In this document: positions 1 through 61,321 of the stretch, in pieces | Numbering within the stretch: position 1 is the stretch's first letter | How the letters are laid out: the number at the start of each line of letters is the position of its first letter | Source of the DNA: Glaciozyma antarctica PI12 | Lineage: Eukaryota > Basidiomycota > Microbotryomycetes > Kriegeriales > Camptobasidiaceae | DNA: 64,000 nucleotides | Direction of reading: 5' to 3' | Assembly: GCA_002917775.1 (NCBI GenBank) | Contig: KZ627149.1 | Span: 165,689-229,688, forward strand | The notes under the pieces: generated by a model | Told to the model about the DNA's origin: nothing | The model's database searches: none | The model's input: the letters and a program-made list of their open reading frames with translations, nothing else | Made by a program: the position numbers and the translations under genes

Positions 1-795
1 GCCTCGAGATAGGTCCAGGATCACCCCAGCGAGCGCAAAGCCGCAACCTCGGATTCCGGCACTGCCTGCGCCTGCTCCTGCTCCTGCACGCGTACTTTCG
101 TCAGGATCGCTTCCTCTCTCTGGTCACGAAATGCCTGCACATCCCGTGACGAGGGATCCGATTGAGCCGGCCAAGAAGGCTCTGTAAGGAACGCACCGGT
201 CAGTCTGTCAGTCCCCGACGACGGACCGGTGAGAGAGCGACGAGGCTGCGATCGCCAACGGAGAGAAAGCGTGAGAGACCGCCGCAGTGGTGAGCGAATA
301 AACGCACGTACCTCGTCTCCAAGCGATGTTGAGAACCCATCCGAAGCTGCTGTACGCGCGAGGGAGACTGTAGACGCTGCGCTAGACGCTGCACTGGAGG
401 TGAAACCAGGTGCTAATCGGCCGTGATTTCCGCGTGCAGGATCTGTGTTTGGAGGAAGGTCAGTAGGCACTGCGAGTTGACCGGCGCCTTTCAAAGGCGC
501 ACCGTGTTCCTCGGTAAGAAAAGAGAGGTCGTAGTCCGCCGAAGACTTGGAGAGCACCAGTCTGATTTGTTCACGCATACGCATAAGGCAGGGGTGAACG
601 TAAGTGTAGGCTGGTGCTGGAGTAACGGCAGCCGATCGTCAGCTTCAACCCGACCAGATGAAAGGAATGTGCGCACATTCAAGCCTGTCGGCTGCAAGTC
701 CCTCAGCCCGGACCAGAACGCAATCTTTTACGAGACTCTGAGCAACCGTTCCTTGAATGTAGTGATTCGGAAGGACACCACGGAGGAAGATTCGC

Positions 796-809
796 CTCTC
801 CGACTGCGA
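796..809. repeat. LINE target-site duplication, left copy
   Basis: Plus-strand ctctccgactgcga, identical over 14 bp to 1446-1459. It lies directly beyond the (GATA)n tail of the LINE. Confidence 0.85.
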
Positions 810-1445
810 TGGAAAGATAGATAGATAGATAGATAGATATCTTCATTTCTAGTCATGTCGAGCTATGCCCATGTAGACCACCAGCATTTGGGAGAGCCCG
901 AAGGCGAGGAGAGGGGGGGAGTACGGGGGTGTGGAGCGAGTCCTGTCCAGATACTTAAAACGCAATGCAATGTAAACATAAATGCCTCCCCCCATCACAC
1001 CGCCCGATCCCAGCGCCGCCGCGCTCATCACCAACCAGCCTCGCTCCTCCCGTCCATCCTAGTCCCTCCAATCCATCCCTTCCCACTCACACCTCCGAGT
1101 ACCCTCCCCCGGCATACTCCTCCCCGCTCAGCCCTTACCCTTCCACACACCCTTCCCTCCCGCCGTGAGCCTTGCCTTGAGCTCCTCGTGGTACCTCAGA
1201 AAGCGACTGGTGTTGGTGACGAAAGCGAGCGTGTGAGGCACGACCTTCGGGTTGCTGAGGAGGGAGGAGAGATCGTAGGCGTCCGGTCCGACGGCGTGGA
1301 TGAGTCGGGCGCGCTGCTCCTCGTAGAGCTCGCACCCGAAGAAGAAGTGCCGCCTCGTTTCGGGTCTCCCGCACTGGCAGCGGTTGTTGGGCCAGCTACG
1401 GGTCTTGTGGAGGTCGGCCTTGAGGTGGGAGCGGCCGGTACGGTG
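810..1445 (-). mobile_element. 5'-truncated non-LTR retrotransposon (LINE), 3' end only
   Basis: Read on the minus strand, about 1445-1131 encodes the C-terminal tail typical of fungal Tad/I-type LINEs. It starts at HRTGRSHLKADLHK, runs through a zinc-knuckle-like CQCG...HFFFGC, and ends with the LLSNPKVVPHTLAF...F block found just before the stop of these elements. A 3' untranslated stretch of about 300 nt follows, closed by a (TATC)n tail at about 810-840. A perfect 14-bp target-site duplication flanks it (796-809 and 1446-1459). Reverse transcriptase and endonuclease are missing, so the copy is dead on arrival, as is common for target-primed insertion. The perfect duplication and open tail ORF suggest a young insertion. 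It lies in the 3' part of the kinase-like gene. Confidence 0.85.
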
Positions 1446-1459
1446 CTCTCCGACTGCGA
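1446..1459. repeat. LINE target-site duplication, right copy
   Basis: Identical 14-bp copy at the truncated 5' end of the LINE. On the minus strand this is coding sequence of the host kinase-like gene. Confidence 0.85.
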
Positions 1460-2577
1460 GGTACTGAGAGAGCCGCAGAAACGCGTCTACTCAGCTTTGC
1501 TCATGTTCCCCACGGTTAGGACCTGGAATACGCACGTGAGAAAGCGGTGTGCGACTTTGCAGCGCCGGGAATCAGAATCGGCGTTCTCGGTGTCGGCCAA
1601 GCAGAAGGCCTCCTTGAATTTGTCGAGGGCTGGTCTCAGAAAGAGCCGCCTTGTAAGCGTGTGGAAACTGCAGCCAGCAATATCGTATCAGCAAAGTGCG
1701 CATCCGACGCAAGAGAAGGCCGGTAACGCACATAGTGGCAGCGACGGAAGCAATGTCTTGCATTGTCGAATCCGCACTGTCTAGCTTCCTCGCGACGCGC
1801 TTTGCGAGCTCCACCATTTGCGGAACAACGGCGTTTGATCCAGCGGCGGTCTCGACCCCATCTCCTCGCTTCCCGAGCCAGTAGCTGATGCGACGAAGGT
1901 GGATCACCTCACCGCCATATTCGAAGGTCCCGATTCCCGATCCGGCATTTCTGCGAGACCAGCTAGGCGTCAGCAACTTCATAATCCCGCAGGAGCGAGG
2001 CTTTACGCACGGAGGAGAGCAGCGCCGATACGCGCTTCCGAAATCAGCGATCTTGAGGATCAGGTTCGTGTCGCTCCCGCAAAGAATGAGGTTGTGAGGC
2101 TTGATGTCGCTGCGAAAAGAGCGGGGTTGGTCAGTATGAGCTTCTCTGCGGAGCGTGGCACGAACCCATGGATGATCCCGCACTCGTGAATGAACTGCAC
2201 AAACGAAAGGTGAGGTCAGCTCAAAGGGAGGGGAAACAGTGCGTTGCACCCACGCACAATAGTACCTGCCACCAGCTGCTCAACAAACTCGCAGGCCGTC
2301 ATCAAGTAGATGGACGCACGGTCATCCAGCAAGGTTGGTCCAAGGAGCGTCGGACTTTGTATCCACTGCGCCAAGCTCTAAAGGTGCTCAACTTTAGAAA
2401 GGCAGGACGAAACGTTGACTAGAGCTGACGCACCATCATCCCAGCCTCGCACGCGAGGAACCGAGCATTGCCATGAACGAGAGAAGGTTGCTGCTTGAAA
2501 ATTCCGATACAGTACGCAGTGAGAACGAACGTCGACGAGCAAAGGTTGACCATCTTGAACTCGAGCTCGAGAGATGT

Positions 2578-2642
2578 GTCCTAAACAGGCAAATTGACCG
2601 ACCCGTCAGCGTCCTAAACAGGCAAATTGACGACCCGTCAGC
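2578..2642 (-). repeat. Tandem duplication of a branch point plus 3' splice site
   Basis: Two tandem copies (2578-2610, 33 bp; 2611-2642, 32 bp, one base shorter) inside the intron of kinase-like copy A that ends at 2580. Read on the minus strand each copy carries gctgacggg (branch-site-like) and a TTTAG acceptor, so the intron has two complete 3' ends about 32 nt apart. Confidence 0.8.
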
Positions 2643-3219
2643 GGATGAAGCGGAGTAGAAGGAACTGAGCACACATCTGAAGCTTGAAAGCGGCTTCAAC
2701 GGGAGTGCTTGAGCTCGCAGGAAGATATTTCTTGACGACCATAACCTGGCCAAACGTCCCCTTGAGTCCACAGCATCAGCGACGGCGTCCTTGCGAGCGA
2801 AATAGGAGATATCGCACCTTGCCGACACTCTTGGCCTCATGAAAGGCGAATTTTACCGCTCCCAGCTTGCTAGCAGAACAGTACCTTCCGAACGTAGCGC
2901 TCTGAAGCTTCCCACTGAAACGAAAGCTCTTGATAGAGCATCGCTTGACGGTTGAGAGCGCGATCTCTCTGACATCGCACACGACCTCCCTGCTCCCCAC
3001 TGCCAGAACCGGCTCATCCCCGACAAGATCCATCATCTTCCCTTTCCCTTTCCATCTGGGATCGCCTTCGACCAGAACGACTCCTTCGGACGACCGTCGA
3101 GGAGCTCTCGCCATGGAGGTAGTTTCGTCACCGCCGGGACCGTTGCCGCCGGGACCGTTGCTACCGGGACCGTTGCTGCCAGCCTGCTCGAGGATGCTTC
3201 GAGAGCGAGTGGTGACCAT

Positions 3220-33244: not shown

Positions 33245-34171
33245 TCAACCCCCTCGTCGAAGCTCCGCCGCCACTTTTCGACGACGTTGCCCCTCCACGT
33301 CCCCGGGCTTGGACCACTGCAGCGACAGCTCCAAAAGTCCGCTCTCGACCGAGGGATGCATTTTGGCTAGGTGCCTGCGCACGACGTCAGCAAATCAACT
33401 AGTAGAGAGGTACACAATCATACGTACCTCTTGACGTCGCCTCGGTGCATGGTCTTTCGAGGCGGACACTTCGGAACGACCTGGCAGGTCCAGCGGTGCC
33501 TGCTGCTCTCCGTCGCGACGGTCTCGAGGTTGGGGTACTGCGCTGGAAAGCCGAAATAGAAGCCTCCGTGGATCTCTTCCTGCGATGCTCACACGGAATT
33601 AGCGACGCCTTGTGAGATAGATACCCGCATCCTGCTCAGGATCGCTCGGACTCCTCCTCGCTCGCCTCGCCGGCGCTGTCCGCGCTGTCGCTGACCTTCA
33701 TCCCTCACTGCACACCTAATATCAGCCCCTACTCCTCCCTTCGACCTCGCAAGAGCACCGCACCTCTCCCGCTCCAACGTTATCCTCCATCTCCTCCTCC
33801 TTCCCATCGGCGACCATTCCTCCGTGCTGCTCTTCCAGGGAAGCTTCCGCGACAGCAAGCCTGCTCATGAGTTCTACCTCATCCTCCTCGAGGACCGCCT
33901 TCATGTTCTAGAGGACCGCGTTCTCCCTCTCGAGGACGGCCTTCTCTCCCTCAACAATTGCCCTCCCCCTTTCGCAAGCCCCAATCTTCTCCGAGAGCGT
34001 CGAAATCTCCAGGTGCCTCGCAGCGATCTTCAAGGTGAGCTCTGCGTTCGTCGCCTCGCTGGCTTGGAGGAGCTTGAGGTAGTGCGAGCTGGGAGGAACG
34101 TGCGCCGCTGGGTTGTCGCTGGGAGGAATCGCGAGGCGAGAGGGTGGTGGGAGGGAAGAACAGCGGTTCAT
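33245..34171 (-). pseudogene. Coiled-coil plus zinc-finger gene, paralogue 1 (broken)
   Basis: Starts MNRCSSLPPPSRL at 34171. A predicted coiled coil follows (LKLLQASEATNAELTLKI, LEISTLSEKIGACERGRA, EGEKAVLEREN). An in-frame TAG at 33908-33910 interrupts the coil; the frame then continues (MKAVLEEDEVELMSRLAVAE) into an acidic end. Later exons encode YFGFPAQYPNLETV and a C2H2-like finger (WTCQVVPKC, then HLAKMHP; C-x5-C-x13-H-x4-H) before TGA at 33245. The paralogue at 39979 shares the N-terminus [N/S]RC[S/T]SLPPPSRL, coil and acidic end. Function unknown; the finger suggests DNA or RNA binding. Head-to-head with kinase-like copy B. Confidence 0.6.
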
Positions 34172-34712
34172 ACTGAGTTGGTGAAGCGGAGGAGAGCGTA
34201 GGAGGTTGAGGGTAAAGGAGGAAGCAAAGGAGGAAGCGCCAGCTTTTGCAGCTTTCCCCTCGAGTAATCTCGTTAGACGACTCTCCCTAGCCTCTTTTGC
34301 GCACACTCCTTGAGCGCTTGAGTTTGCAATATTAGTATATCGTATTCAAGAGACTGCTGGTCCGCATCGTGCCCTTGCTGCACCGTCTCGCACTCGGCAT
34401 TCCTGCCTCAAACAGACAGCGACAGTGGCACTCCACGAACTCTCGAGCTGTCCCAAAAGCCTGTTAATTCAATCACTGACATTCCAAATGCTTTCAGAGA
34501 CGAGTGACCAGAGTAAGGGAGGACGGAAGGGGAGGAAGAGACTTGGAGAGACTCGCTCCCTCTTTCCTTCCTTCCCACCACCCGCTCGCAGGAGCAGCTT
34601 GAAGACAGCGCTCTCGAGTATTGATTGCCCCAGCGACCTATCTCCACGTCTGTCACACGCGCAACGGCCCGCAAACCTCTCTCCTTCAACGAGTCGTCGT
34701 TCAGCAGTGGGC
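34172..34712. promoter_or_regulatory. Divergent region, coiled-coil 1 / kinase-like B
   Basis: 541 bp between two proposed divergent starts. It contains an AT-rich patch (caatattagtatatcgtat near 34327-34345) that is unusual in this GC-rich DNA. Confidence 0.35.
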
Positions 34713-36898
34713 ATGCGCACCCGCTCCGCCTCCGCCTCCGCCGCTCTACGCGAAGCCAGCATCAATACAGTACCTTCCCAGAAGCAGTAGCAGCAAACTC
34801 TCCAAGCTCCCTCTCGCGAATCGCCTCTCCAATCAACTTCCCGGCAACAGCCAACTCCTGTCGCGTCTCGACAGGAGTCGAGCACTCCCGCAGGAACGCC
34901 AGGCGAGCTGGCAATCGAAGTCGCAGGGCCGCTTACAGGGTCGCCAGCGAGGACTGAGAGCTCTCTGAGCTTCGTGGTGGAGGAGGAGGAGGAAAGCGAG
35001 GAGCTCGAGGAGGAGCCTTCTATGCTGGGAGAGGAGGAGCAGCAGGACCAGCGCCAGCTCATCGTCTCGTTTCAATTCACGAGACGTTCAACTTGCGTAG
35101 TGCTTCGGGCATTTAGACGTTTGGTCTGGCGTTGTTTGGGGTGAATTGCTCGGCTGGAGAGGCGGAAGGGATTTGGCAGCTGGGTGCGGGAGTCGTGATT
35201 GGGAAGGTGTGCTCCCCCTCTTCTGCAGATGATCTATTTCTGACGCGATACACTAATAGGGAGCGAGCGGAACCGTCATGAAGGTTCGGAACATTTTCGG
35301 CACGAAGAGTTTGGCGTTCGAGAACACCGGGGTCCGTCACTCCAGATCTTCGGCTTCCTCCCCCTGACGTCCAATCTGCAGCGGTCTCTCATGGACGAGT
35401 TCATTATGGCGTTCAAGTGCCGCTCACCCCAGGTCATCACCGTTTTTGCACTCGCTCAGATGCCTGGCGAAATCGGCGATACCATGAATGGCGAGCTTGG
35501 CGCCTGCGGCGTACGTTCTCCTCTCGTTTCAAAATCTCGCAGCTGAATTGAGCAACATGCAGAATTTGAGCGACTACGTCAAACGCAAGGACGTACGGGC
35601 GCTCACCGGCCAAGATCTCGAGGACTGGGTTGCGGTCGTCGTTAAGCCTGTTATCTCCCAAGTCCTCGCAGGAGCAATCGTGCGTTTCGCTTTCTCGTTG
35701 TCTCTAAGGTCGTGATCTGACGCGTCCCGCAAGCGATACATGCGGAAGGAATCCTTCACCGGTTCGCGTCGCTCCCGCATTTCGCTCTGCGCTCTCGCTG
35801 ACATTTCCGCACGCAGTGACCTCAAGCCCGCCAACATCTTCATTATGACAGACACAGGACCTTATCCTCTCCTCAAGATAGGCGACTTCGGATCCGCGGT
35901 CGACTCTGCCGAGGAATCACACGAGTGCGCGGTCCTTCTCCCAGCGACGCTCGTGCGCTAACCGTTTCTGCTCGCAGCGGTCTCGAAGGAACGCCGGCGT
36001 ACGGAGGCTTGCGTTTTATTTTCGAACGGATTTTCTACTGGCTCGACTCAATTCAGACGCCGGGTACGAACAGAGTTGCGCGTGAGCGGCGGCTGGCGGA
36101 GGACCTGAAGCGTGAGCTGGCGCTGCTCGATACCTTTGCTTAAGACGCTTCTGGTGTTCTCGCTATCGCGTAAGCGTATTCCTGTACGTTCGTCATCGAT
36201 GATTGTAGCTGACTGGAACGGACGCAGGTTCCAGTGCATCACTGGAGAGCCCATCAGCTCCGCTGAGCTCAACGGCTACCACGACCTCTTCGGCAAAGCC
36301 AACCTCGACACCTCGAACACTTGGCGAGAATCGTTGCGATGTATACTTGGAGAAGCGTACGTTAAGTGAGTTGCTTCTTCTCGTCGTCGCATCCCCAGCC
36401 CGCCGAGATTCGCTCTCGTCCCGCGCCGTTCTGACTTGGCTCTCCTCCCTCAGTATCCCCCGCAAGTTCCGCTCCAGCATCGCCGCGAATGTGCTTCCAG
36501 AACAGTACCAGCTTCAATCTGTCGTGATCGACTGCTGGTTCCCTTTCGTGGCCGCCGGCCTCGGATTCTGGCGCCCAAGCGAAGGTGCGAGCTCGTCCTT
36601 TCTCATCTTTCTCCACTAATCAACCCAATCTCCTCTTGCACCAGAATCTCCGTCGAACGTCCAGCTGATGAGCGACGCTTGGGGGATCCACCACCGCGAC
36701 GCTCCAGCTCTTGGTTCCCAGGCCTCATCCTCAAACGGTGAGGGCTTTCTGATCGATAGTCTCCAGCGATCGCTGACTGTTCTTGCTACCAGAAGATGGC
36801 TCCACGCAAAGTGAGCTTTGCGCCTCAACGTCGCTCTCCTTGTCAACGTCGCTCTCCTCAATCCCTCAGCCGAATCTCGCGGGCGCCTCGTCCATTGA
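34713..36898 (+). pseudogene. Divergent protein-kinase-like gene, copy B (broken)
   Basis: Proposed start MRTRSASAS. Acid-rich leader (VEEEEESEELEEEPSML), then the family block NCSAGEAEGIWQLGAG-VVIGK directly before a phase-0 intron and the glycine loop GASGTV. The VAIK position reads LAFEN, so Lys is Glu (35320-35322). Then DEFIMAFKCRSPQVI, LSDYVKRKD, ILHRDLKPANIF, LLKIGDFGSA and GTPAYGG. The shared C-terminal domain follows (GLALLxx..., FQCITGEPISSAEL, NVLPEQYQLQSVVIDCW, NVQLMSDAWG). Damage: in-frame TAG at 34788, one missing base at the exon start near 35735, in-frame TAA at 36141. Known: the VAIK lysine holds ATP phosphates. Inferred: a dead copy of a kinase family. The 3' end is approximate. 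Confidence 0.6.
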
Positions 36899-37399
36899 TC
36901 TCCGCCGTTGAGCTCGAGATGTGAGCCGAGGCTGGTGGAGGATTAAGGGGAGGAGAAGAGAGGGAGGGACTGACCAAGAGTGCGTCCAAGGACGCGGTGC
37001 CGTGAGGCCGAGAGACGACCGCACGTCGGGCAAAGATAAATGGCATCTTCAAAAGATAAGGCGGAGAGGGATCGGTTCCTGGGGAGGAGATGAGGATCTA
37101 TCAGCTCGCGGCGGTCGGAGAGCTCCATGAGGCCACGCACCGTCAAGTCATTCTCTGGCCGAGGCACCCGTAGAACCTTCGCGCAAGGCGTGAGCCAGCG
37201 CCGAAGACCTTAAGGTGAAAGAAGCGCACCATCGTAAGGTCTTGTGGCCAATAACGGGGTCACTGTGAGGAGCAAGAACATCCGACGACGCAGGCCGTTC
37301 AGCGGAGGTGAGTTGTCCGAGAAGAGCTGGAGACCAAGCCGGGGCGTCCTGGGACAGATTCAATGCCCTTTCGAGAGTCGGGGCGAGCTGAGCCAATGT
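36899..37399. other. No gene supported
   Basis: About 0.5 kb between kinase-like copy B and the inverted duplication. A minus-strand open stretch (37148-37396) runs on from the duplicated segment and may be its 3' end. Confidence 0.35.
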
Positions 37400-38330
37400 C
37401 GACTCGAGTGATATCGCGAGAGGACGCCTCCCTTGAAGCAGCGAGTGTCGAGCGCGTGCTGTGCGAGTCCCCTGCCAGACAAAGGTCCGGTCAGCTCTGC
37501 GAAGTCCTCAGCAGCAGCTTAAGAGCTGCAGATCTGTTCCGAGCAGGCAAGGACTCACCCGAGTACGCTGCTCCTCTCCCCCTCAGCCTTCGCCCTCGCT
37601 CTCCTCCGCCTTGCTCAGCTCCCTCCCAGTCCTCCCTTCCTGAGCACGACCTCCTCAACAACTCGAAGAGAAGTTCCGTTGCCCTGCGTGACTGCAGCCG
37701 TCTGGTGGCGACGTGTCAAGCAGTTCGGAGAGAAGGTCGAGGAGAGGGCGGGGGGAGCGCTAGGACGTGAACGGTTCCTCGTCGAGCTGGACGTACGGCG
37801 CCGGCGAGTGAGTTCGTCGCGGAAAGCTCGAGCTGGGTAGAACGCCTGGCGATTAGGGCAACGTGGGCTGTGATAGAAGACAAGCTGGCGAGCTCGAGAG
37901 GACTTCGCCGCACTCAGCGGGAGGTGGGTTGCTCTCTACCACCACTCCGCCCTCTCGCCCGCCCTCTAGGCAGTGTCAATCCACCCCAGGACGCCATCTA
38001 GTCCAGCGGATCGCTCAGTACCGGCCCACGCTTCCACGACAACCGCGCGCCTTCCTCTGAGTCGGCAGCTCTCCGTCCTCCTCCTCCTCCTCCTCCCCAG
38101 CAGCGCCACTCCCCTCCAAACGCACCACACCGCAGGCTAGTAGGTACGACTACTTTATCCACAGCCGGTAGCCCAGCCTCCTCGCCAGCGCCGGCTTCCT
38201 CGTTCTCGTCGAGCCAAGCAGGTCGGACGCATCTGCTGGTCCGGCCGCAGGAGCGGAAATGAGCTGGAGAGCGCCTGGTTTGCAGGGCGTAGGAGGGCTA
38301 TGGAAGTCGTGTGGTGGTCCTGCGTGCGGC
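37400..38330. repeat. Inverted duplication, left arm
   Basis: About 0.93 kb whose reverse complement closely matches 52930-53975. Landmarks: the stretch around aggacgcctcccttgaag (37420) and agcaggtcggacgcatctgc (38220) recur at 53905 and 53070 on the other strand. Read on the minus strand, both arms keep a plausible intron (gtgagt ... gctgacc ... ggcag) near 37480-37560, so the segment probably derives from a spliced gene, but I cannot name a product. No terminal inverted repeats typical of a DNA transposon were seen. Confidence 0.75.
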
Positions 38331-39281
38331 AAGGGTGGCCTCAGATCTGAGTGCGCGAGGGAGCGTTGGCTGCTCTGGGAGGGACGGGAGCTCTGCAGAG
38401 CTCAGGAGCTGACAGCTACCTTTGCACGCAGACACGCCCTTTTGAAGGCTTCGTCTCGGCAGACCCAACGAAGTACAACAAGATCGGCCTCCCCGCTTCC
38501 TCCCTCGCTCCCTCCAGGCTCTCCCGACCTCACTTCGGCAGCTACTTCGACCTTTTCAGTCCAACGTACGACGCACACGAACCCCTACCGAGCTCGGCAG
38601 GTCAGCAAGCCCCGTCTCAAAGACTTTTGGCGGGATCGCAGCGCGGAGGCCGACGAGAGTCTGGCGTCGCCGAATGGAGTGAGAAGTGCTGCTGGATACG
38701 CTCCCCGGGATTGCGCAACCCAGCGACGGTGTGGTGGATGGCATCGAGGAGGAGGGGCAGAGGAGGCGATGTGGACGTAGCGCATGAGCAGGGCTTTATG
38801 AGCACGCAATCCAAGGACGCTTCCGCTTCTGCTCGGCTTGCGAACTGCTTTTTCCGCCAAGTCTACTGCTCGATTAATCTGCTCAAAAGATCTGCTCCGC
38901 TTGCTCGGCTCCTGGTCTTCGCAGCCGCGACCTCCACGACGCTGCTTCAACCCGTTCGTATGCTCCTTCTCTCCGGCTCTCGCACTAGCAACTATCCCGC
39001 CTTCAACCACAACTTCACGCGCATGACAGCGCCGCCATCGGAGGCGAGCGGGCCGCTCTCGGCTTCCTCGCTGCTGGCCGCCGACCTTGCTCACTCAAGT
39101 AAAGCTCGACCGAGAAGCTCCTGTTCCCAGCTCCTGTTTCCCATGTTGATTTACGCAACAGCCAGCCGGCTCAGCGGTGACGAGAGCCTGGCGTGCTGCC
39201 ATTCACAGTTCTCGGTAGGTGGTTCACTGTCTCGACTTGGCTGGTGCTGATCGCAACCAATCCTTTGCATACGCGTCGAGC
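38331..39281. other. Unresolved open stretches beside the inverted duplication
   Basis: A 299-codon open frame on the plus strand (38351-39250) and a 169-codon one on the minus (38585-39094) overlap. Neither shows a known motif. A possible plus exon follows an acceptor near 38441 (TRPFEGFVSADPTKYNKIG). I cannot decide between them; gene debris is likely. Confidence 0.25.
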
Positions 39282-39979
39282 TCAAAAGCTGAGGCTGACT
39301 TCTCCAGCAGCATCTACGCACGCACTGAACCGCTTATTTGCACCTCGACAAGTTGTACTCAATATCACCACCCCTCCATGACAGGACCCCACTTCTTCAC
39401 GCTCCAGTCCCTTTCGTAGCGGCACAGCGGTCCAGTTTGCTTCACGTGCTGCTGGACATGCCTGTTTTCAACAAGTTAGCGAGCGCCATCCACACAGAAC
39501 TCAGACGCTAGCTCTCCACTATGCAGGCATCCGCAGGAACGCACCTCATCTCCCTCCGCGTCGGGCTCCATCTCGATACCGCCCTCGGAATGCTCTCCAT
39601 CGCGCAAATCCGCTTCGGCCCGTCCCTCAAACTCCTCCACTTGCTCCTCCGCGCGAGCGAGCTTGCCCACTAGCTCCTCCCGTTCCCTCTCGACGGCCAC
39701 CTTCTCCCTCTCCACGAGCACTTTCTCCCTTTCCACGACCGCCTTCTCCCTCTCCGCGACCGCCTTCTCCTTCTCGCAGAAGGCGAGCCTCTGCACGAGC
39801 ATGAGGTTGTCCGCCTCGCTCGCCGCCAACTTCTCCCTCAGCTCCGTAATCGTGGCGACGTGGTCTTCGAGGAGTGCGGCGGAAGCGGCTGTTTCGAAGG
39901 GGCCGTGCAGAGGTGGGAAAGCGTCGTTGAGCGAAGCTGTGAGGCGAGAGGGAGGTGGGAGTGAGGTGCACCGACTCAT
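39282..39979 (-). CDS. Coiled-coil protein, paralogue 2
   Basis: Starts MSRCTSLPPPSRLTAS at 39979. Strong coiled coil from about residue 40 (VATITELREKLAASEAD, LAFCEKEKAVAEREKAV, then a run of VEREK heptad-like repeats, LVGKLARAEEQVEEFEG), ending acidic (GGIEMEPDAEGDE) at an intron placed as in paralogue 1. Unlike paralogue 1 the coil is open throughout. After the intron (donor gtgcgt, acceptor aaaacag) no clear zinc finger is found, so the 3' end may be lost or truncated. If unspliced, the frame stops at 39476. Function unknown. Confidence 0.5.
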
Positions 39980-40573
39980 GGATAGAGGTGGAGATGGGGG
40001 AGGAGTGGCGGAGAGTGGGGGGAGGAAGAGAGGAGCGTCCCGTAGAAGACGCTCGTGCCGCCAAACTCTCTCTCGCAGGCTCGATTTGAGCACAGATTCG
40101 GTGAGGATAGCCAGCCTCTGCTGGCTGCGCCTGAATGGACTTCCAGCTTTCGCTGCGCTCTCGCAAACGCACGCTTCGCGAACAAAAGCTCTCGCAAAAG
40201 TGGTGCCATAGCTACAGGCGCGACGGATAAAGGGCAGCGATGATGGGAATTCAGCGCGCGGGAGTGTAAAAGCGTGGAAGAAGAAGAGTGGGGAGAGGAA
40301 TGCTAGCTCGGGGAGAGTGACTGGGGTGCGGTTGGATCGGGGAGGTGGACGAGGGGAGTGAGGTATAAACCGAGGCGACGATGCGAACGATGATGAATGA
40401 GAACGATGATGAACGTAGAGGTCTAGTTCCCGCTGTCAACGTGTGAATCCGAGAAATCAGCGAAATTCCCTCGGCAGCGAGAAACGGGAAAATGGGACGC
40501 ACGAGCTTCGCACCGGTAGGGTGGTACTTCTGGAAGTGCTGGAAAAGCGCCGCTCCGTCGTGCAGCGGGATCA

Positions 40574-41512
40574 TCACCGTTCCCTGGCAGCAGGAGACGA
40601 ACTTGCCGTCCCCCTGCGGAGCGTCAACACCCGCAGCAAGACAGCGCGAGACTTGAGGCCAAAGCTGCTCACGTAAGACGAGGATGTTCCTCCCACCGTC
40701 TCCGACGAACTCTTGCGATCCAAGGGCTCAGATGAGATCTTCGGAGCCGTTGGCGCGCCAGTGGGGAGCTTCTTGCCACGAACCGAGGACTCCTGCGAAG
40801 GCCGTCAGCTAGAAAGCCAGATACGGCAGCAGCGTCCTCACAATCCTGATCTGGGGAGGCACCTTGACGAGATTCTTTGGCTTGTGTGTGAGGCGATCTG
40901 AGCTGAGAGTGGGAGTAGCAGAGGTCTTGCTCTTCGTCGAGAGTCAGCGCTGAAATTTAACCAGTGGAAGAAAAAGTGCGTACCGTCGTCGGGTTGTTCT
41001 TGGGCAAGCTCTGCGATCCAGATTAGCTGCGCTCCTTGAGAGACAGCGAAAGTCGTACCTCAGCAGATCTCCCCAACAGTCACTTCGTCTGCGTCGTGAG
41101 CCCAGAGCCTTTCGTCGCCTCCTTCGCAAGGCGAGCCCGGAAGTCCTGCACCCGTATGGCTGTTTCCGCCGTGGAACCCTGCTTGTAAACCGTGTATCCT
41201 GCTCCTATGAGAGGAGAGGGTCGTGGAATCAGCTCGCCGCCATCCTTCTTCACGAGACTACGCCCCGAGTACGGGAGCTGAGGAGCCAGCGCCTTGACCC
41301 GCTGGAATAGTCAGACGAGCGGCAACAGACGAGCCGCCCAAGGAAGAGGTGACGAGAGTGGAAGCCTCGCTCGGAGCGAGGGAGGGGCGGCGTGACGACA
41401 CGGAACCGGCGTGAGACGACGTGTGTTTGGTGGAGGGTTCCTGGTGATGGTGAGTAGACGGGGCTGTCGGCTTGGCCTTTGAGCGAGTAGTACGTTGCAA
41501 TGGCTCGCTCAT
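40574..41512 (-). CDS. Low-complexity Ser/Thr/Lys-rich protein, unknown
   Basis: Start MSEPLQRTTRSKAKP at 41512, then a Ser/His-rich stretch. Later exons read VYKQGSTAETAIRVQDF, SLPKNNPTT, SATPTL-SSDRLTHKPKNLV, ESSVRGKKLPTGAP and SSSYVSSFGLK, with TGA at 40574. Introns of 45-90 nt carry usual donors and branch sites, but one join (near 41010-41055) does not keep a single frame, so the model is provisional. TTRSKAK at the start resembles the TRS start of the kinase-like genes (MVTTRSRS, MRTRSAS); this may be chance. No domain recognised. Confidence 0.4.
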
Positions 41513-41911
41513 CGTGTAACTGTGGTGGTTCTTGAGGTATGGACGGAGCAGAAGAGCAATTTGAGCTCAGGAGCTCAAGAGTTGCCAGGAGCTTGCTGAC
41601 GGCGCTTGTTCGACATCCTCACGCGCTTTCCAGGTCGCGCGGGTTGTAGGAATCGATTGAGTCGCTGTATCACTCTCTTAGGAGATAACCGCGCAGGCAG
41701 TGTTCTGCAGAGAAAGCTGAGCTCGACTTGGGGACTCCGCAGAAGGTTCCTCGAGATTAGGTTATCTTTCTCCCACCGACACAGAGACGTGTATCGCAGC
41801 AGAGAGAGAGATGTAGCGGGAGAGGAACTAGTACTCAGCTCGACGAGGAAGGTGGGTAGTAGATCTGCGAAATGGGTTCCAATATGATGGGAGAAGAAGG
41901 AAGGACCTCGT
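41513..41911. other. Intergenic, no gene supported
   Basis: About 0.4 kb between two minus-strand genes. It must hold the promoter of the Ser-rich gene. A 93-codon plus-strand open stretch at 41606-41887 has no motif. Confidence 0.4.
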
Positions 41912-44900
41912 CTACTTGTTCGGCGAAAAGTAGCTCCCCGTGGGCCGAACCGTCTTGACGCCCATCCGCTTCGCCGCTGCCGTCCACTGGCGGAACTTGC
42001 CCATGTAGCTCGTACGAACTTTGAGCTCGACCATGCGGCTAACGGGAGGGACGAAGGCGCGCGAGGTCAGGTCCGAAGCTGCTTGCGGAGGGAAGAAGAT
42101 TTAGCGCGACGCGACGTGCCGAACAGCAAAAGACGCACGAAGCGCGTTCTCCTTGACCATCTTGCTCATCTCCGACTCGGTACCGTTCTTGAGGATGAGA
42201 ACAAGATCTACAGAGTTATGTGGACGTCAGAAGAGCCAAAGCGACCAGGAATAGGAAGCGGCGCACCCTCGATTGACACTTCGCAATGCTCCCCCACCAC
42301 GCCCTCAATCCCGACCTTCGTGTTGACAATCGCCGAGCTCCACACCACATCCGCCGCCTTCCTAGCACTCTCCAGCTCTTGCGATACCTCCATCCTCGCC
42401 TGCTGCGCCGCCTCGAGCCTCACAACTTCGCCATCTGTCGTCGCGAGCACGTTGCGAGCTGCCTCCCTCTCCTCGATCAATTCGATCCCCATCGTCCCTT
42501 CCATCCTTTCGATAACCTCGATCAAGCACCTCGATAGCGAATTGAGGCTCGGTCGAGTCGTGTTACCGAGCCTGCGGTACCAGTACTGCGCGTCGCGCCA
42601 GACGAGGCGATATTGACCGAAGAAGGCGGGGTGGTCGTCGACGAAGGTGAGGGCGAGGATAAGGAGGTCGAGAAGGTAGGAAGCGGCGCCGTGATGGATG
42701 TTCGTGGCGTCGGGGAGGAGGTACGTGTAGAGGGTGAAGTGGAGGAGCTCTTTGAAGACGATCGGAAGAGCTTCGCGGCGTCCTGCAGCATGCTGGTACG
42801 CGTAGAAGGTTTTTTCGATCTCCCTGATCGCTTCGACCCAGGCCTCGCTGCCGCTTCCCGTCTTCCCTCCGACGTCGGATCGCTTTCGAGCGCCTTCGAG
42901 GGCTGCGATCGCGCAAGCCAGCATCGGTGCAACTTTGTCGATAGGCCGACGAAAGGCATCGGAGGAAGCGAGCTAATAGGAGCAGAGTGAGCGAAGACCG
43001 CAGACGAGAGATGTGGCGTAGCTCACCTCAAAGTCGAGCGACTGCTGAGCGCGAAGACCATCGCTCTGCAATCGAAAGCGTCAAGACAGTGCTCGGAATA
43101 CCTTCCTAGAAACCGCACCTCAGTGTACCGCTTCCCCGAGAAGGGTTCCAGCGTGCAGAGCGAACCGCCATCGAGAGAAGAAATAACGAGCATGGTCTTC
43201 GTCGCATTGAAGATCTCGGCGCCGTACGTCTTGAACTGCGTCTTATATCAGTCGCGGCTCAGAAGTTGAGCGGCTGGCGAAGACGAACAGGAGTCACGAA
43301 TTTCTTGAGAACCTTGTACCGATGTACTTCTTGAGCTGTAAGCGCGCGACCGTCCCAAGTCTTGACGAAGCCAAAGAACGTCAGCTTGCGATAAGGAAAA
43401 GAGAGCTCTGGGAGAGAGGAGAGTGGGGAGAAGGGGGGGAGAGACGGGCGACGAACCAGAGGAGCGTCAACATCTGCGAGAGCTTCTTCAATCGTGACCT
43501 GCGCTCCACTCCTCGATCAGCTTTGGCCTCTCCAACAATTCTGAAAAGCTTCTTACCGTTTGGTTACCATTCTCCTCAAGCTCGTCGAGAGAAGCCTCGC
43601 CCCGAGAGCCGTCGTCCTCCGGGAGCTCGCAGTGCCGAGCTCGGTAGAAGGCAGCGCGAACCTCGAGGACGGTTCCGACGGGGATAAGATCTCCGCAGGT
43701 GCCTTGCAGCTTCCCGATAAGGTCGGTCCAATTGTCGGCGATGTCTTGCGGCGATTCCTCGGACGTCGATTCCCACGACCGATCCTTGACACACCGAACG
43801 TCGTCAGCTACGTCTTCGCCTGCATCTCAAGAGGTCGGAACGCACCTCGAATCCTCCTGCGGACGACTCAGGATCTGATGGCGACGAGCGCAGCGAAAGT
43901 GAGGAGGTTGTGCTCAGACGAGGACGATAACCGATTTGCCGCTGGAATGGGCTTGCAGCGCTGGAAGGAGATGCGGAGAAAGCGTAGGCGGGCTGGAAAA
44001 TGTAGCGTCAGCTGCTCGAGTCTGTCCAGGATAAGAGACTCAAGACGTACGGATTCGCGGGAGAGGGGAGTCGACTGCAAAACGCGCCCGTGCAGCTGAG
44101 GACTCGAGAAGTGCTGGCTCTAAAATGCAGGAGATCAGCTATCAGCGAGGTAGCTACGGCGCGGCGCGAAACCGGCGACGTACGCCTCGAGTTTCCGATC
44201 CATGAGCGACGTCCGAGTTCGGCGAAGAAGGGACCGACACGTTGGTGACGCCACTTGAGCGAAAGAGGGTAGGGAGGTTGAGAGAGTTCTGTGGAAGCGT
44301 TGTGTCAAACACGCACGGTGCAGAAACCAACGATTGCGACAACGTACGAGGAAAGGAGTCGCGGGGGAAGGAGCCGTAGCTTCGGCGGGTGAGTGCGGAC
44401 GACGCTGCTTTCGACGGGGCGCAAGCTGGTGCGTGAGGATATCCGTGCTTTGGAGGAAGGCGCTCCTCTGTTGCAAAACATCAGCATCGGCGAACGCTCA
44501 CTCTGTAAACTTACGATGAGCTCGCACGTCTTGATTTTGGCCTGAGATGCGGCCAGCTCATGACCCATCCGCGCCGCATAGTCGCGCTCCTCCAGCGATA
44601 CCATGAAAGCATCGTCGACCCATTTGGCCACGCCGTGTCCATCCTCCGCTAGCTGAGCAAGACGGAAAGTCGACGAGCTCTCCTCTCCGGATCCCACAGC
44701 GAGCAGGTTCAACAACGCGCTAGCGAGATCCCCCATCCCTTCTCCCCTCTCCCTCAGAAGCTGCGCTGCGGCTACCACAGCTTCCACGGTCCCCTTGACA
44801 AGCTCCTCGATAGCGGCACATTCCCCGATCTCGCTCCCGCTCCTCCGCAACGCGTCCACCTTCTCGATCTCACACCTGCAGTCATCAAGAATAGCGACAA

Positions 44901-45069
44901 TGTCCTCCATTCTCAGACGGAAGCCGCGCTTGCGGTCGTCGACCTTTGGTGGTGGTGAGGCGGCGGTTCGGGAGGGGGTTGGCGCGCTTATCGGCGGCGG
45001 AGCGGAGTGGGCGTCAGTGAAGGTAGGAGAGGCGGGAGGAGAGGGATCCAGGGAGACGCTCCTCGCCAT
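41912..45069 (-). CDS. Large intact protein of unknown function
   Basis: Start MARSVSLDPSPPASP at 45069; about 12 exons; TAG at 41912. The N-terminal half is Ser/Pro-rich with helical parts (MEDIVAILDDCRCEIEKVDA; AIEELVKGTVEAVVAAAQLL). The C-terminal half looks globular: FKTYGAEIFNATKTMLVISS, GSLCTLEPFSGKRYTE, WVEAIREIEKTFYAYQHA, ALTFVDDHPAFFGQYRLVWR, then a coiled segment (EVVRLEAAQQARMEVSQELE) and FRQWTAAAKRMGVKTVRPTG near the end. Introns (for example the ones ending before FKTYG, SDGLRAQQ and LASSDAF) are all short with good signals and the frame holds, so the gene looks functional although it sits among decayed sequences. I do not recognise the family; a lineage-specific orphan is likely. 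Confidence 0.65.
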
Positions 45070-45534
45070 CTTGACTGCTGAGGTCGGGGGAACAGGAGAC
45101 GAGGAGCTGGTTCGGCGCGTCGGCGGGAGGTGGTGCTGGTTCGTGCTGGCGGTTCGGGGGGCGCTACGGCTATGCTCTAAGTAATCCTTGGTGTTCGCAG
45201 AGATTCGCTGCTGCTGTACTCGAGCTTCGAATGAGAGCGGGAGGGGAGGAGGAGGAGCTTCCCGGGCCCACGCCCAGGCTTCGCGCTCTGACCCCTCAGG
45301 CCTGAGTACCCGCTCCTTCTCTCAGATCTCGACCCGATTTTGGCTAATTCTCGTGATTATGTAGAAGAGCAATTTCAAGAGAAATAGGCTCGCCACAACG
45401 AGGAAAAGTAAAGGCGGATTTCTGCAGCCTGCGAGAGAGAGCAGACGCGGGCCAGCGCTGCTGGAGCCACGAGCCCAAACTCAAATCCACCCAAGTTCTC
45501 TTTTCTCCTCCTCTCCCTCCTCTTCAGCATTCTC
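45070..45534. promoter_or_regulatory. Divergent region between two orphan genes
   Basis: 465 bp between the minus-strand orphan (start 45069) and the zinc-finger gene (start 45535). Contains pyrimidine-rich tracts (about 45500-45530) just before the plus-strand start; no other site recognised. Confidence 0.4.
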
Positions 45535-46892
45535 ATGAAGCCCACCAGCCAGGAATCAAGCTCCTCTAGCGCGCGACGAGGAACGGCGCCGGCCAGCAAG
45601 TCGACGGTGCCAGCGCTGCTGCCAGGAACGCCCACTCCCTCGTCTCATCCTACACCCTCCGGAGCGTCTGCTTTCTCTACCGCCACCTCAGCGACCGCCG
45701 TTTTCAACTCAAGCGCCTTCTCCACCTCTTCGACCGCCTCGACCGCCGTCTCCAGCAGCCCGTTCACGCTTCCCGTTGACCGCAGTAAGTTTGACTCCTG
45801 TGCATTCCTTGCAGCCAGCTGATCGTTCCATCTCTCCAGGCTACCGGACGAAAGTCGACCTAGGGGCTCCCGGTAGCACGCGTACCGCGTACGAGGAGGT
45901 TGAGGCGATTACGCACGCTCAGCGATGGCAAGGGTCGCCGACGAAGGGTGGTACTAGGGAGAAGCAAGACGCACGTAGCGCTTCTCCCACGAAGGTAATA
46001 AGATTTCGCTCGGTCTTGTTCACAGCTAACCACTGGTTGTTCCACCAGGATTCTCGGTCGACCAAGGTTCGCCTTACTCCCGCCGACCCCCCTGCGCGTC
46101 AGAAAGCTGATTCGTCCTCTCTCCCTCCAGACAAGGCACGCGGTGGATACTACTCCACGCCCTCGCCATCCCAACTTCGAGATTGGATCTCCGGCTCCCC
46201 GCAAGAGCAAGTCGCACGTGTCGGAGAACAGGACTCCCGTCGTTCGTCCCTCTCCCCCTCGCGCTTCGCAAGCTGACGATGAACGTAGCACGGCCCAACT
46301 GAAGACCGCGACTCCCATTCGACGCCTACACAAGTTTTCAAGACTCGCTCTTCCCCGACGAAGAAGAACATCGAGAGCTCCCACGGATTCAAGGTGCGCT
46401 CTCATCGCGCGCCCCCCTCTGTAATTGTGTGCTCGCGCCGTGCCTGCTGCACCACTAGTCTGGATCGAAGAAGAACACCGCTTCCTCGTCTCCTTCTGCC
46501 ATTTCTGCCTCCAAGGACTCGGTGAGTTGCCATGCACTTTTTGTCACGCAGTTCTGACGGACGATGCGTAATTCCAGCACGGCCTCTTCATTGCCCTCGC
46601 CGAAGCCGACCGATACTGCAACAAGTGCGGAAAGGAGCACGACTACTTCTCTAGCCTCGTATCGCACCTCGAGACGGCTCACAGTAGCCCCATCCTCCAT
46701 CCTCCATCTCGGCCTCCCCCGCCCTCCGACCCGCCCTCTCCCACCTCTCCCCCAACATCAATCGCTCAGACCCTCAGTGCATCCAGATCCACACCTACCC
46801 AGTCATCACCCATTCCACCCGCGTATCACCCCCAACATCAGCATCTCACCCCGCAGGCCTCGTACTTCAGGAATCCCCTCTCGTCATGTTGA
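45535..46892 (+). CDS. Ser-rich protein with one C2H2 zinc finger
   Basis: Start MKPTSQESSSSSARR. Exons: Ser/Thr-rich first exon ending at 45783; YRTKVDLGAPGSTRTAY; DSRSTKVRLTPADPPAR; HGPTEDRDSHSTPTQVF (after acceptor gtag at 46290); SGSKKNTASSSPSAIS; then HGLFIALAEADRYCNKCG. The last exon holds one C2H2 finger, C-x2-C-x12-H-x4-H (CNKCGKEHDYFSSLVSHLE then TAH), followed by a Pro-rich tail and TGA at 46892. Repeated SPTK sites (GSPTKGG, SASPTK, SSPTKK) fit proline-directed kinase targets. A single finger plus basic Ser-rich sequence suggests nucleic-acid binding; that is inference. The splice around 46265-46290 is the least sure. Confidence 0.6.
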
Positions 46893-47663
46893 CCCCCCTT
46901 GTTACTCCCCTCCTTTGTTATTCCCCGCCACGATAGCCCATGCTTTGCAGCCCATTTTAACCTCCTACGCCTCGAGAGAATCGTTTGCGTCGGCTTTAAA
47001 GATACTGCTAGCCGAACGGAGAGCAGAGAGCGGGTAGCGAAGTCAATCGCTGGACCTGCCCGTTGGGAGCAGGCTCTCCGATTCGTAGCGAGCATTTAAA
47101 CTACCTGGATGAGTCTCCCACATCCGAGCTACGACAAGGGCGAGGCATCCGCGCCTGCGAGAGCAGACTGGAAGAGCTTCGGTAGCGAGTCGGGAGCGCC
47201 AGTCGACCTAAAGCTACGAGTTTCTACGCCGCCACAGCTGTATCCCTTGTTAATTAAATAACTGCCTGTGGTCAGCTTGGAAAAGAAGGTGCCGCTGCGA
47301 ACAGGGAGACGGAGCGATGGCTCTTCCTGAGTCACTGACCGCCTGTGAGGGGACGGGGCTAGATAAAGCGTATCTTCGCAAGCCAGAATGCGCGTAAAAG
47401 TACTTTGGCAGAAGGAATGCGTTAAAGTCTGGCGGAAGAGGCTACGGTGTGCTCCAGCGCCTCGTCCAAGGAGGAGAGAACCTGGCTCAACTTGCATTCC
47501 TCGACTTCAGCCCTCTCTCCTTTCTCCCATACACTCCTACTCTCGTCAACCACGCCAGATCTCCAGCTTCAATCGCACGCATTGTACTCGAAACTAGCTG
47601 CCGCCCCTTTCTCTCAGCGCTTCAAGCACCCTCAAGCTCGACTTGCGCCAACGCACCACCTCC
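46893..47663. other. Intergenic, no gene supported
   Basis: About 0.77 kb. Includes an AT-richer patch (ccttgttaattaaataact near 47245). A 122-codon minus open stretch (47129-47497) lacks motifs and splice signals. Confidence 0.4.
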
Positions 47664-49761
47664 ATGCGCGCGCGCTCTGCCCCTCGCCCCCACACCTCCT
47701 CAAACCCTCGTCCGAAGGTCACCAAGGCATCCTCTCACTTTTTCCTCCGTCTCCTCCGCACAGCAGCCGCCGGAAAGTCGCGCCAGTTCGAGCTCGATAG
47801 GAGAGGAGGGTGAGGTGCTCCACGAAGTAGAGGAGGAGCGGGGGAGCGAGTTGGGAGAGGAAGAGGAGTTGGAGTACGTTGATGATGAGGGGGGACCGTG
47901 GTGGGGCGGAAGAGCAGCGGAATGGTGGTGAGCAGGTCGGGGAAGATGTAGGACAGCGTGCGTCGCTCGTCTACCTCACGGCTACGTGCGTCCGCCACTT
48001 CAGCATCTGGGCGGAAGATAGTGGAGGGGAGGTGGTTGAGGCGATGTTCAGTGGCGGGTGTTCGGCGAGGGAGGCGGAGGGTCTTTGGGTTGTTAGAGAG
48101 GGAGAGGTGCTGGGCGAGGTGAGTGCACAGGATTCCTTGACAGGAACGGCCTAGCTGATAGCTCATTCCAGGGATCTTATGGATGCGTTTAACGGGTTTC
48201 GACTATGGACGGTTCGAAGACGCTGGCGTTCAAGGTTTCGACCAGGGCGAACGCCAGCAAAGGGGTGCGTGTCTCGTCTTTCCCTCGCCGTGCTGTGAGC
48301 GAATTCACCTGCCTTCCACAGCGTGCCGCTTTCCGTCGAGAGTTTACCATGATTCGCAACTGCGCCTCCCCGAACGTGATCGACATGTACCTTTTTGCCT
48401 GCGACGGTCCCGAGACGTACCTGGTTGGCGAGTTGGCGCTTTGTGTCCGGGCTTTCGCTGTCGCCAGGGGATCGCACTGACTAAACGACACCGACAGAAC
48501 CTCAAGGAGTAATTGGACGATTATGCCCCCAACGATACGACGACTGCTGCGGGCAGAGAGCACCGGATCACCTCCGTCGTCCTTCCGGTGATCTCCCAGC
48601 TTCTCGACGGCGCTGTGGTGCGGATTGATTCGAGCCTCCAAGCTTACGAAGCTGATATCTTGCCAACTTGTAGTACATCAACGACTGCGGCGTCATTCAC
48701 CGGTGCGTGAGGTCCGTTTCCAGTAGCGCAGTTGCTTATCTTGCCGAACAGGGATCTCAAGCCTACGAATCTACTCATCACGCAGGAGCGTCGTGGGAGC
48801 TACCCCATTATCAAGATCGGGGACTTCGGATCCGCAATTACTCGCGGCGGAGATGCGTTCGCTTCCTCCTTCTTCGTCGGCTTCCTTTCGCTGATCTGCT
48901 CTCGCAGGATTCCTGAAGGCACAGCTCTCTACGGCGGCATCTACTACATCATTGGTATTGCTTTCCACTGGCTCCACCGAAAGCCAGAGTCCGAACAAGC
49001 TCCCGGCGACGAAATCTTGCACAGCTTCCTCGAGCTCGAGGTTGACAAGCTCGCCATGGACCTTCAGGACGCTAACGCTATCGTTGCAATCGCGTGAGCT
49101 CTTTTCACGTTCCCTGCATCAGCAGATGAAGCGGATGCGAGTGTCTCCAGGTACCAAATGATGGACGGACGCCCTTGCACCTCGCGCGAGCTGACGGAGT
49201 TTATCGAGGTCTTGGAGTCCAGAATGAGAGACAGCTCATTGACGGCGCGGCGCTGGCAGGCTGCGAGCAGCTTTTCGAGGTGAGTCAATCGTCAAGCCAG
49301 CTTGTCTGCCGTCGTAGCTTCCTGACACCTCGGCTCCTCGCAGATTTCCAGCCCTCATTCGAGAATCTCTTCGTGAGAACCGAGTTCCCGCCGAACTAGG
49401 TCTTCCACCGACTGTGGAGCTGACCATCTGGAACGACTTCATCCTCGCTGCCTTTGGTCTGCTGCTTCCTCAGGGTAAGCGCGCTTCCTATTCTCGCCTC
49501 AAAAGCCATCGCTCGCTCGCCCGTCATCCCAGATTCCAGTGGCGCACTGCCATCGGGCTTGCAGCTAATGCGGGAAAGGTGTCCGCACCATGTTACCGAT
49601 CTCCCTGTCTTCGCTCACGAAGACTCTCCCGCTCTCAGTAAGTTTCCTTTCGCTTGCTCCGCAACGTCGCTGACTCGCTTTTGCTGCGTCTTAGGTGCCT
49701 GCACGCGAAGGGAGCTTCGCATCTCAACGCACCTCTCCTCGAGCACTCGACTGGAACTTGA
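47664..49761 (+). pseudogene. Divergent protein-kinase-like gene, copy C (broken)
   Basis: Proposed start MRARSAPRPHTSS, phase-0 intron, acid-rich leader (GEEEELEYVDDEGG), then the family block CSAREAEGLWVVREGEVLGE ending at an intron just before GSYGCV. TAA follows at 48190-48192. VAIK is intact (LAFKV), then FRREFTMIRNCASPNVI, a second in-frame TAA at 48510-48512, LDDYAPND, VIHR|DLKPTNLLI, IIKIGDFGSA and GTALYGG. The shared C-terminal domain follows (LAMDLQDANAIVAIA, RYQMMDGRPCTSREL, ENRVPAELGLPPTVELTIW, GLQLMRERCPHHV) and ends near CLHAKGASHLNAPLLEH. Intron positions match copies A and B. Apart from two stops the frame and splice signals are well kept, so loss looks recent. Confidence 0.6.
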
Positions 49762-50528
49762 AGATATCTCGCCCCATCGTTCGCCTACTGCGTCGCACGT
49801 CGAGCCAGCTGCGCCACCGTTTCAGCATTCTCCTCTCCCTGCCATCTCTATCCAAATGCGATATGACTCTTATTGCTGCCCAGCCGAAGCTGATTCCTTG
49901 TTCGTCTGCAGGCGGCTTTGGTCCCTTCCGAGCTCCCGAATCCGCGCGTAGAGCAGTCCGCGAGCGGTAGTGGCTTGAGTCGGAGCGAGATTCTCTCGAG
50001 TAGGTGGGGATATATTACGTGGCGAGGCCGTGGCTTACACGGATTAACGTTAGGTCTGAGGCTTTCTCAAGCTGAGAAGGAGAAGGCACGCGCTATGGGC
50101 GATGGCTCGGATGTGGTTTGTCCCTTTCTCCCTGAGATGTTGATTTCCCTGATTCCATTTCGCGGGCAGGCCCGAAGTTCCAGATAGTCAATCGAGGGGA
50201 CGTTGCGGATGATGCGTGGATAGCGCGGGCAACGAGGTGGCAAAACAACAGGTTCTTCTGTCTGCGAGGTGAATGCAGGAACGTGGGACGGAATCGGAGA
50301 TCGTTCACGAGGTGGTAGTTAGAGCAGTGTGTACTCTTCGCCAACGACAACACTGGTGCTAACGAGTCACAAGCAGGCATGTGGTTGTTCACGGCGTACA
50401 CATTCTGGTCTGATGTGCCGCTTTGAGGAAGGCGGGGGAGTGGCAAAATGGGGACGGTTGCCATAGGGATGGTAAGGTGTGAACGCGCTGTAGGGTGGAC
50501 ATTTGCGAGGATGGGTAACTTGATGCCT
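49762..50528. other. No gene supported
   Basis: About 0.77 kb after kinase-like copy C. One plus open stretch (GYITWRGRGLHGLTLGLRL, about 50007-50063) looks weakly coding but has no partner exon I can justify. Confidence 0.3.
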
Positions 50529-50906
50529 TCAATGAAACAGCGAGAGGAGGTTCTGGAGTTGCTTGATCCCCGGCGTCAGCGGGATCGGGTCGTGCGCCTT
50601 GCGAAGGTAAGCGAGGACCTCGCGCGCCAAATCCTTGGTCTCCCACTGGGATTGAGGAGCTCTATCTCCGGGATCAGGCTTGAATCAAACTCTGAAGACT
50701 TCCAGCTCTTTCATGCGCATCAGCCTGAGGCTTGTTCACAGGTCTCGCGGCCCTTGCGGAGGTAGCGAACACCTCGCGCACCAAATCCTCGATCTCCCAC
50801 TGAGACTGAGGAGCTCTATCTCCAGAATCAGCCTCGCATTCGAGTCCGAAGACGTCCAGCGCTTCCACGCGCATCAGCCTGAGGCATATTCATAGGTCTC
50901 GCGGCC
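50529..50906 (-). pseudogene. Gene fragment with internal tandem duplication
   Basis: Minus-strand coding-like sequence ends KAHDPIPLTPGIKQLQNLL plus SLFH and TGA at 50529. The motif GDRAPQSQWE[I/T] then [E/K]DL[V/A]REV[F/L]A occurs twice, once in each 155-bp repeat copy. Because 155 is not a multiple of three, the two copies lie in different frames, so the duplication breaks the reading frame. Product unknown. Confidence 0.4.
50597..50906. repeat. Tandem direct repeat, 2 x 155 bp
   Basis: Copy 1 at 50597-50751 and copy 2 at 50752-50906, with shared blocks gaggagctctatctcc, catcagcctgaggc and caggtctcgcgg/ataggtctcgcgg. I estimate about 80 percent identity by eye, so the duplication is not recent. 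Confidence 0.75.
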
Positions 50907-51666
50907 CCGCTCGCTGCCTGTGGATCTGAGTGATCGTGATCATGGCCGTTGAAGGAGGGGAGCCGATGATCCACTTCAGGTGCTTGAATACAGGACAGAA
51001 GACGTGGAGCGCAGCCTTAAACCCGCCCTGTTGGACGTGTCGCTCTGGCGCAAGATCTCGGTACCCAGCTCGCTGTCTGCGGATTGAGTGAGAGAACCTC
51101 GCTAGCGAGAGCCGGTTCTCGAGGCTGAGGTGCCAGGTTGCACGATTCATCGCTATCCCCGGGCTGTACAACACTCCTCCAAGAGCGTCAAGCACGTAGG
51201 AATTGCAAAACAGGCTCTCCAGTCGCGCGATTCAGCAAGTTGCGCAGAGGAGAGAAGCTCGCGAGCCAGAGCTGGTTCTGGAGCCTGATTCATTTCTACT
51301 GGGAGAAAGTGCCCAGAACCTTTTTGTTGCCCTCTGCCCCAGTGATCTATTTCGTTTTCCCTCCATTGTCCCTCCCCGCCCGAAACTCCTTCAAAAGCCC
51401 TTTTGTGACCCCCTCCTGAACCAAGTGCCTGCCCTCTCGAAGTCAGCGGCTATTCTCGACGTTTTCAGAGAGAAGTGCCGACTTTTTGTTCCCCCGTCGG
51501 CCCACGGCACTTCCGCAGCCCAAGTATCGCCATAGCCCCTCCCTGCTCCCCTTCGCCACTGGCGCGAGGTTAGGGTGCTGATCCTGGTTTCCGAAGAAGA
51601 GCCCTTTCCTTCCAGCAGACAAGGCAGCGGCGAAATCCTGAACTCCAGTAATCAGCTCCTGTAGCT
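50907..51666. other. No gene supported
   Basis: Minus-strand open sequence (about 51195-50890; ALHVFCPVFKHLKWIIG) may be an upstream exon of the fragment at 50529-50906. The rest (51300-51600) is pyrimidine-rich with no motif. Confidence 0.3.
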
Positions 51667-58000: not shown

Positions 58001-58233
58001 AGGACGCCTTCGGACCATTCGCCGAGACCACTACCCCCTCTCACCCCTCCAGCACTCCAACCAGCTCGAACCGCAACTCATTATCCTTATCCGACGTCGC
58101 CTCGTCCAACAGTACTTCGACCGCCGAACCATCGCCAGACGAGGATACTCGCTTTGTCCCTATCCTCCCGGACGACTTCTTCGCCGTGCTGGACGTTGCG
58201 AAGGGCGGACGGACGAGTGGCGAGGAGTGGTAG
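55064..58233 (+). CDS. Ankyrin-repeat plus DIL (dilute) domain protein
   Basis: Start MVHGQVARGSSNIHLD with a Ser/Pro-rich leader. The first intron begins at the gtgaca donor near 55405. Ankyrin repeats: DEDGNSALGLSVALGHAEG, VRLLVEAGASVSGGD, WTPLHWAVQNNDIPIAAYLL, KGLTPRDLVKRG. The DIL domain, known from class V myosin tails, spans about residues 330-720: FIWDRCLPDQMLVFSLQD, CAVWISNSLLLLYYLRKE, EIPPAIVVQAFSQLFYWISC, NRMLTQKKYLCRSKAMQIRL and VSVHFAPVTQMLQWLQC. Fungal ANK-DIL proteins are known as a family, thought to work in polarity or trafficking; the role is not proven. The frame meets TAG at 58231-58233 and then stays open in frame to TAG at 58357-58359. It converges on DBP2. Confidence 0.88.
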
Positions 58234-58359: not shown

Positions 58360-58518
58360 ATGGGGCGGGAGATGTACGCGTGCATTTAGCAGGATCTGGT
58401 GGCGAGTTTGGAAAGCATTCATATACCCTCGTCCTTGAATGTTTGCGTGCGAGCAGTGTGGAGAGCTACAGTTGACCAAAACATTGCACGAAGCGACTAA
58501 AGCACCAACCCTGTCCTC

Positions 58519-61321
<2,803 letters not shown>

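Follow-up and report, generated by a model that had tools for sequence, protein, structure and literature searches.

Three copies of a kinase-like gene, here designated A, B and C, lie within about 50,000 bases of the genome of Glaciozyma antarctica PI12 (20.0 Mb, 18 contigs). The whole stretch analyzed, referred to as the window, comprises 64,000 bases (C4:165689-229688), and positions refer to the window unless a contig is named. Gene models were built from consensus splice sites and homology; those of copies B and C start at 35135 and 47927, respectively. The following features were assigned:

500..795, minus strand: probable tail of copy A past the insertion, ends approximate
796..809, minus strand: second copy of the 14-bp target-site duplication flanking the insertion in A
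810..1445, minus strand: 636-bp LINE-like insertion interrupting copy A, ATCT repeat tail (tandem repeat 815-839)
1446..1459, minus strand: first copy of the 14-bp target-site duplication flanking the insertion in A
1536..3219, minus strand: part of copy A preceding the insertion, in eight exon pieces; Pkinase E 2.2e-14
2818-3219, 2677-2760, 2434-2577 and 2258-2377, minus strand: exon pieces 1-4 of copy A, from homology and splice sites
2166-2194, 2011-2109, 1732-1950 and 1536-1667, minus strand: exon pieces 5-8 of copy A, from homology and splice sites
34713..36920, plus strand: copy B, kinase and C-terminal part, ten introns; Pkinase E 7.4e-18
35734..35761, plus strand: frame break in B, exon 5 having 28 nt versus 29 nt in A and C
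36141..36143, plus strand: in-frame TAA in B, directly ahead of the alphaF-like stretch
47664..49951, plus strand: copy C, kinase and C-terminal part, ten introns; Pkinase E 1.5e-23
48190..48192, plus strand: in-frame TAA in C, glycine-loop exon
48510..48512, plus strand: in-frame TAA in C, exon 4
48908..49093, plus strand: exon of C that contains GTALYGG, the 43-residue segment after it and the first part of the alphaF-like stretch, from the profile alignment

In the alignment of the three copies, the glycine loop, the alphaC Glu, HxDxKPxN, DFGSA and GTxxYGG are invariant. The motifs read HGDIKPHN, DFGSA and GTFEYGG in A, HRDLKPAN, DFGSA and GTPAYGG in B, and HRDLKPTN, DFGSA and GTALYGG in C, with HRD in B and C and HGD in A. 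The N-lobe Lys is present in A, where its placement depends on a gapped alignment, and in C, and is replaced by Glu in B. GTxxY commonly leads into subdomain VIII. The APE that closes the activation segment is absent from all three copies, which have YGG after GTxxY; as judged from the alignment, the unusual points of the activation segment are this YGG and the sequence after it. The sequence-only reading had described HxDxKPxN, DFGSA and GTxxYGG in place of APE for all copies as well as HRD and DFG for B and C, and the alignment agrees with it in each of these points. Its CSA-x-EAEG-[IL]W block ahead of the kinase was found in full in B and C, but A shares only CSA and lacks EAEG[IL]W. The introns match among the copies, as had been proposed and as the gene models bear out, and the homology is backed by the alignment. 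Retention of the introns suggests that duplication took place at the DNA level.

As modelled, each copy is broken in this assembly by lesions of its own. Copy A has lost an in-frame splice donor at the second intron and carries the insertion, B has the frame break and one TAA, and C has two TAA codons. Two more stops in B, upstream of the CSA block, could belong to introns and were left out of the lesion count. Intron 2 of copy A also contains a 33-bp tandem duplication that includes the acceptor (2578-2643). We considered it rather improbable that one or more copies are intact in nature and that the lesions reflect allelic differences between strains, errors of assembly or wrong gene models. 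The models are indeed uncertain, since introns can be drawn where the two other stops in B fall, and C has just two lesions in its modelled part along with ten usable GT-AG introns. However, every copy has at least two lesions, these differ in kind, and in-frame TAA codons lie in exons conserved among the copies, where the shared introns cannot remove them. A neighboring CobW-type gene is sound: its stops are confined to stretches that its relatives lack, as expected of introns, which indicates that the assembly is not generally faulty in this region. Among the best 120 of its 478 protein matches, 40 consecutive ones (P0122-P0161) come from Rhodosporidiobolus, Sporobolomyces, Rhodotorula, Microbotryum and their kin, the best of these 40 being that of Rhodosporidiobolus nylandii with 52% identity; within the same best 120 of 478, protein P0121 is closer (78% over 63% of the query).

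The insertion in copy A appears to be of LINE type. Its 3' end recurs on contigs C3, C6 and C14 with 81-88% identity and differing 5' ends, so that a shared 3' end, 5' truncation, a target-site duplication and a repeat tail are all present. The designation is based on this pattern of 3'-end sharing, the ATCT tail and a cysteine-rich stretch, which presumably resembles that of LINE-type elements. A 120-residue open frame of the insertion (1131-1490) had no Pfam match at E ≤ 0.001 and no reverse transcriptase domain, the piece being too short to contain one. Past the insertion, the probable tail of copy A resembles B weakly (38% identity over 26 residues, E 0.065).

Several local features surround the copies. 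An inverted repeat of about 1 kb (37346-38331, plus strand, and 52951-53999, minus strand; 81% identical, 15 kb apart) encloses copy C; its only other match in the genome is 83 bp long (C4:1092624-1092706), which marks it as duplicated locally rather than dispersed. Directly downstream of copy C, a 154-bp unit occurs twice in tandem at 50597-50907, the two copies being 83% alike. The open frames 33911-34345 and 39479-40435, both on the minus strand, are 39% alike over 93 residues (E 4.7e-12) and perhaps represent another small local family. Between B and C, the frames 38351-39247, 39479-40435, 42211-42972 and 44308-45321 have coding-like third-position GC and gave no Pfam match at E ≤ 0.001. 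A Pfam search of 30 open frames, 28 of them taken from a list of 104, identified a HAT-repeat splicing/3'-end factor, Vps41, a RasGAP with CRAL-TRIO and CobW at 9838-31129, and an ankyrin repeat, a DIL domain and a DEAD helicase on the other side (55898-60288).

Searches for further copies returned the same three genes. A profile of the three copies found nothing else across the window (best match outside the copies, E 0.12) and no copy within 10 kb on each side of it (best E 1.2). Protein searches of the genome with two parts each of A, B and C revealed no fourth copy, but their power is low: in only two of the six did one copy find another (C found B at E 9.5e-4 and B found C at E 4.8e-8), and an equally distant copy could escape. 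Fifteen matches lay outside the window, none of them stronger than E 0.0014, and each overlaps a place matched by PF00069, which marks them as ordinary kinases. PF00069 itself gave at least 159 matches over the genome, and of the 159 listed none lies inside the window, a consequence of the short exons. A DNA pattern of the KI[GA]DFGSA type matched the genome three times, each time at one of these copies. The many intact relatives that the sequence-only reading had named as support did not turn up in these searches; only three copies were found, each of them broken as modelled.

In protein databases, 7993 proteins were scored with the three-copy profile, and 257 of them matched at E ≤ 1e-3. The best 120 of these 257 are generic kinases, mostly with about 40% of the first sequence aligned and in a few cases up to 85%, and PADLOC likewise gave generic kinase matches. 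The similarity between the copies holds in a proper alignment, and in a tree with 47 database kinases, namely those with the needed motifs among the first 60 profile matches and without the genome's own kinases, the three copies form one clade (support 99/93, stem 0.95, 98% of 200 bootstrap trees). Copy A is flagged there as a long branch of unsure placement. A tree of 14 rows, likewise without the genome's own kinases, again united the copies (99/98), with long branches flagged.

The copies share with the eukaryotic protein kinase family PF00069 the glycine loop, the alphaC Glu, HxDxKPxN, DFG and GTxxY, with E values of 1.5e-23 to 2.2e-14. In contrast to PF00069, they have YGG for APE, followed by 43-51 residues before the alphaF-like stretch, and their match stops at profile position 146-163 of 263. 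It is very unlikely that they belong to a named group such as FunK1 or the eIF2-alpha kinases. According to the FunK1 study, FunK1 (Pfam PF17667) is a divergent fungal kinase family that grows by lineage-specific duplication and is diagnosed by a serine at active-site position 8 in subdomain VIB (PMC3203195). The copies are likewise divergent fungal kinases, and local duplication would fit this group, but they are not FunK1: the serine is Lys in all three, and PF17667 (Pkinase_fungal) did not match any of them at E ≤ 1. The single PF17667 match of the genome, below the cut-off, sits on another contig. With respect to the eIF2-alpha kinases, HRI/EIF2AK1 was the best PDB match of the three-copy profile, GCN2 was also among the matches, and some EIF2AK and PKR proteins occur among the protein matches listed. 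However, the alignment to HRI and GCN2 extends only up to DFG, and a search with just C put STK11, CDPK2 and CDK1 at the top of the PDB matches, showing that the rank of HRI is unstable.

About 200 residues follow GTxxY, which is more than a kinase C-lobe usually needs. Together with the end of the PDB profile matches at DFG or GTxxY, this length could speak for a kinase that breaks off after GTxxY and has gained a truly novel C-terminal domain by fusion, a reading we regard as unlikely. In the same direction, Pfam gave no match at E ≤ 10 for the C-terminal parts of B and C and a single chance-level match for A (E 0.058); the best match in NCBIfam was also at chance level (E 0.032). On the other hand, in a comparison of the three-copy profile with 98 kinase domains (out of 100 tried, from the best 120 of the 257 matches), the alignment ran on into the C-lobe. 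The C-terminal part alone aligned with alphaF (hhalign score 28.6, probability only 23%, E 8.9e-4 for a single comparison), and none of 150 column shuffles reached this score (mean 12.9, maximum 19.9; reversed 11.4). The stretch aligned to alphaF reads QDANAIVAIAYQMMDGRP in copy C; its Asp is invariant in the three copies, and B and C have a G-x-P-like end. From GTxxYGG to this Asp there are 43 residues in C, 45 in B, counting the stop position, and 51 in A. In BLASTP alignments of C with P0015 and P0055, the long segment is missing and their alphaF falls about 25 residues further upstream; we prefer the profile placement, since it draws on all three copies and the conserved Asp. The match between A and C over the C-terminal part alone does not exceed the largest shuffle. 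A search with the C-terminal part of C yielded 998 candidate proteins and none at E ≤ 10; it requires shared five-letter words, of which B and C have one in common and A none with either, and so it rules out only relatives closer than B is to C. The unnamed C-terminal domain of the sequence-only reading still matches no named Pfam or NCBIfam family above chance level, but part of it aligns with kinase alphaF and a new domain is only weakly supported. The C-terminal part would be, at least partly, a diverged kinase C-lobe followed by a tail.

Between B and C, identities at the three codon positions are 0.53, 0.59 and 0.39, and 0.39 of 79 fourfold sites are identical. This points to a divergence that proceeded mostly under protein constraint, with late losses. 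A, B and C are probably three anciently duplicated and now decayed members of a divergent kinase family, apparently restricted to this red-yeast lineage, whose C-terminal part is at least partly a C-lobe. The undescribed, lineage-restricted family proposed earlier remains the best reading as far as tested, given the lack of a Pfam or NCBIfam family matching the C-terminal part above chance level, the absence of any match at E ≤ 10 among the 998 candidates and the missing FunK1 residue, although intact relatives were not found; a literature search found no paper on this kinase family, which is weak evidence of absence. The ancestor was most likely an ATP-using kinase of the Ser/Thr type, as suggested by the glycine loop, N-lobe Lys, alphaC Glu, catalytic Asp, Asn and DFG in A and C. 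A catalytic ancestor, as previously assumed, is still favored by this motif set, but the Glu for the N-lobe Lys in B departs from it. The ancestral gene would have been duplicated at the DNA level with its introns retained, and the copies would have diverged mostly under constraint at the protein level. GTxxYGG in place of APE and the following 43-51 residues might have led to non-canonical substrate docking and regulation. Each copy then presumably lost its function late and separately by its own lesions.

There is a small chance that related strains or sister species still carry intact members. These would form a kinase family of rapid turnover and local duplication, with an APE-less activation segment and a large segment ahead of alphaF, perhaps shaped by selection of the conflict type (self/non-self, drive or defence), and only its remains would be left here. 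Such intact relatives, if they exist, would reveal how a kinase functions when APE is replaced and alphaF is preceded by a large segment, and they would join FunK1 as a further group of fungal kinases. As found, the locus is a record of losses that occurred separately in a small kinase family, apparently restricted to one lineage, and one of the copies was also hit by a retroelement.
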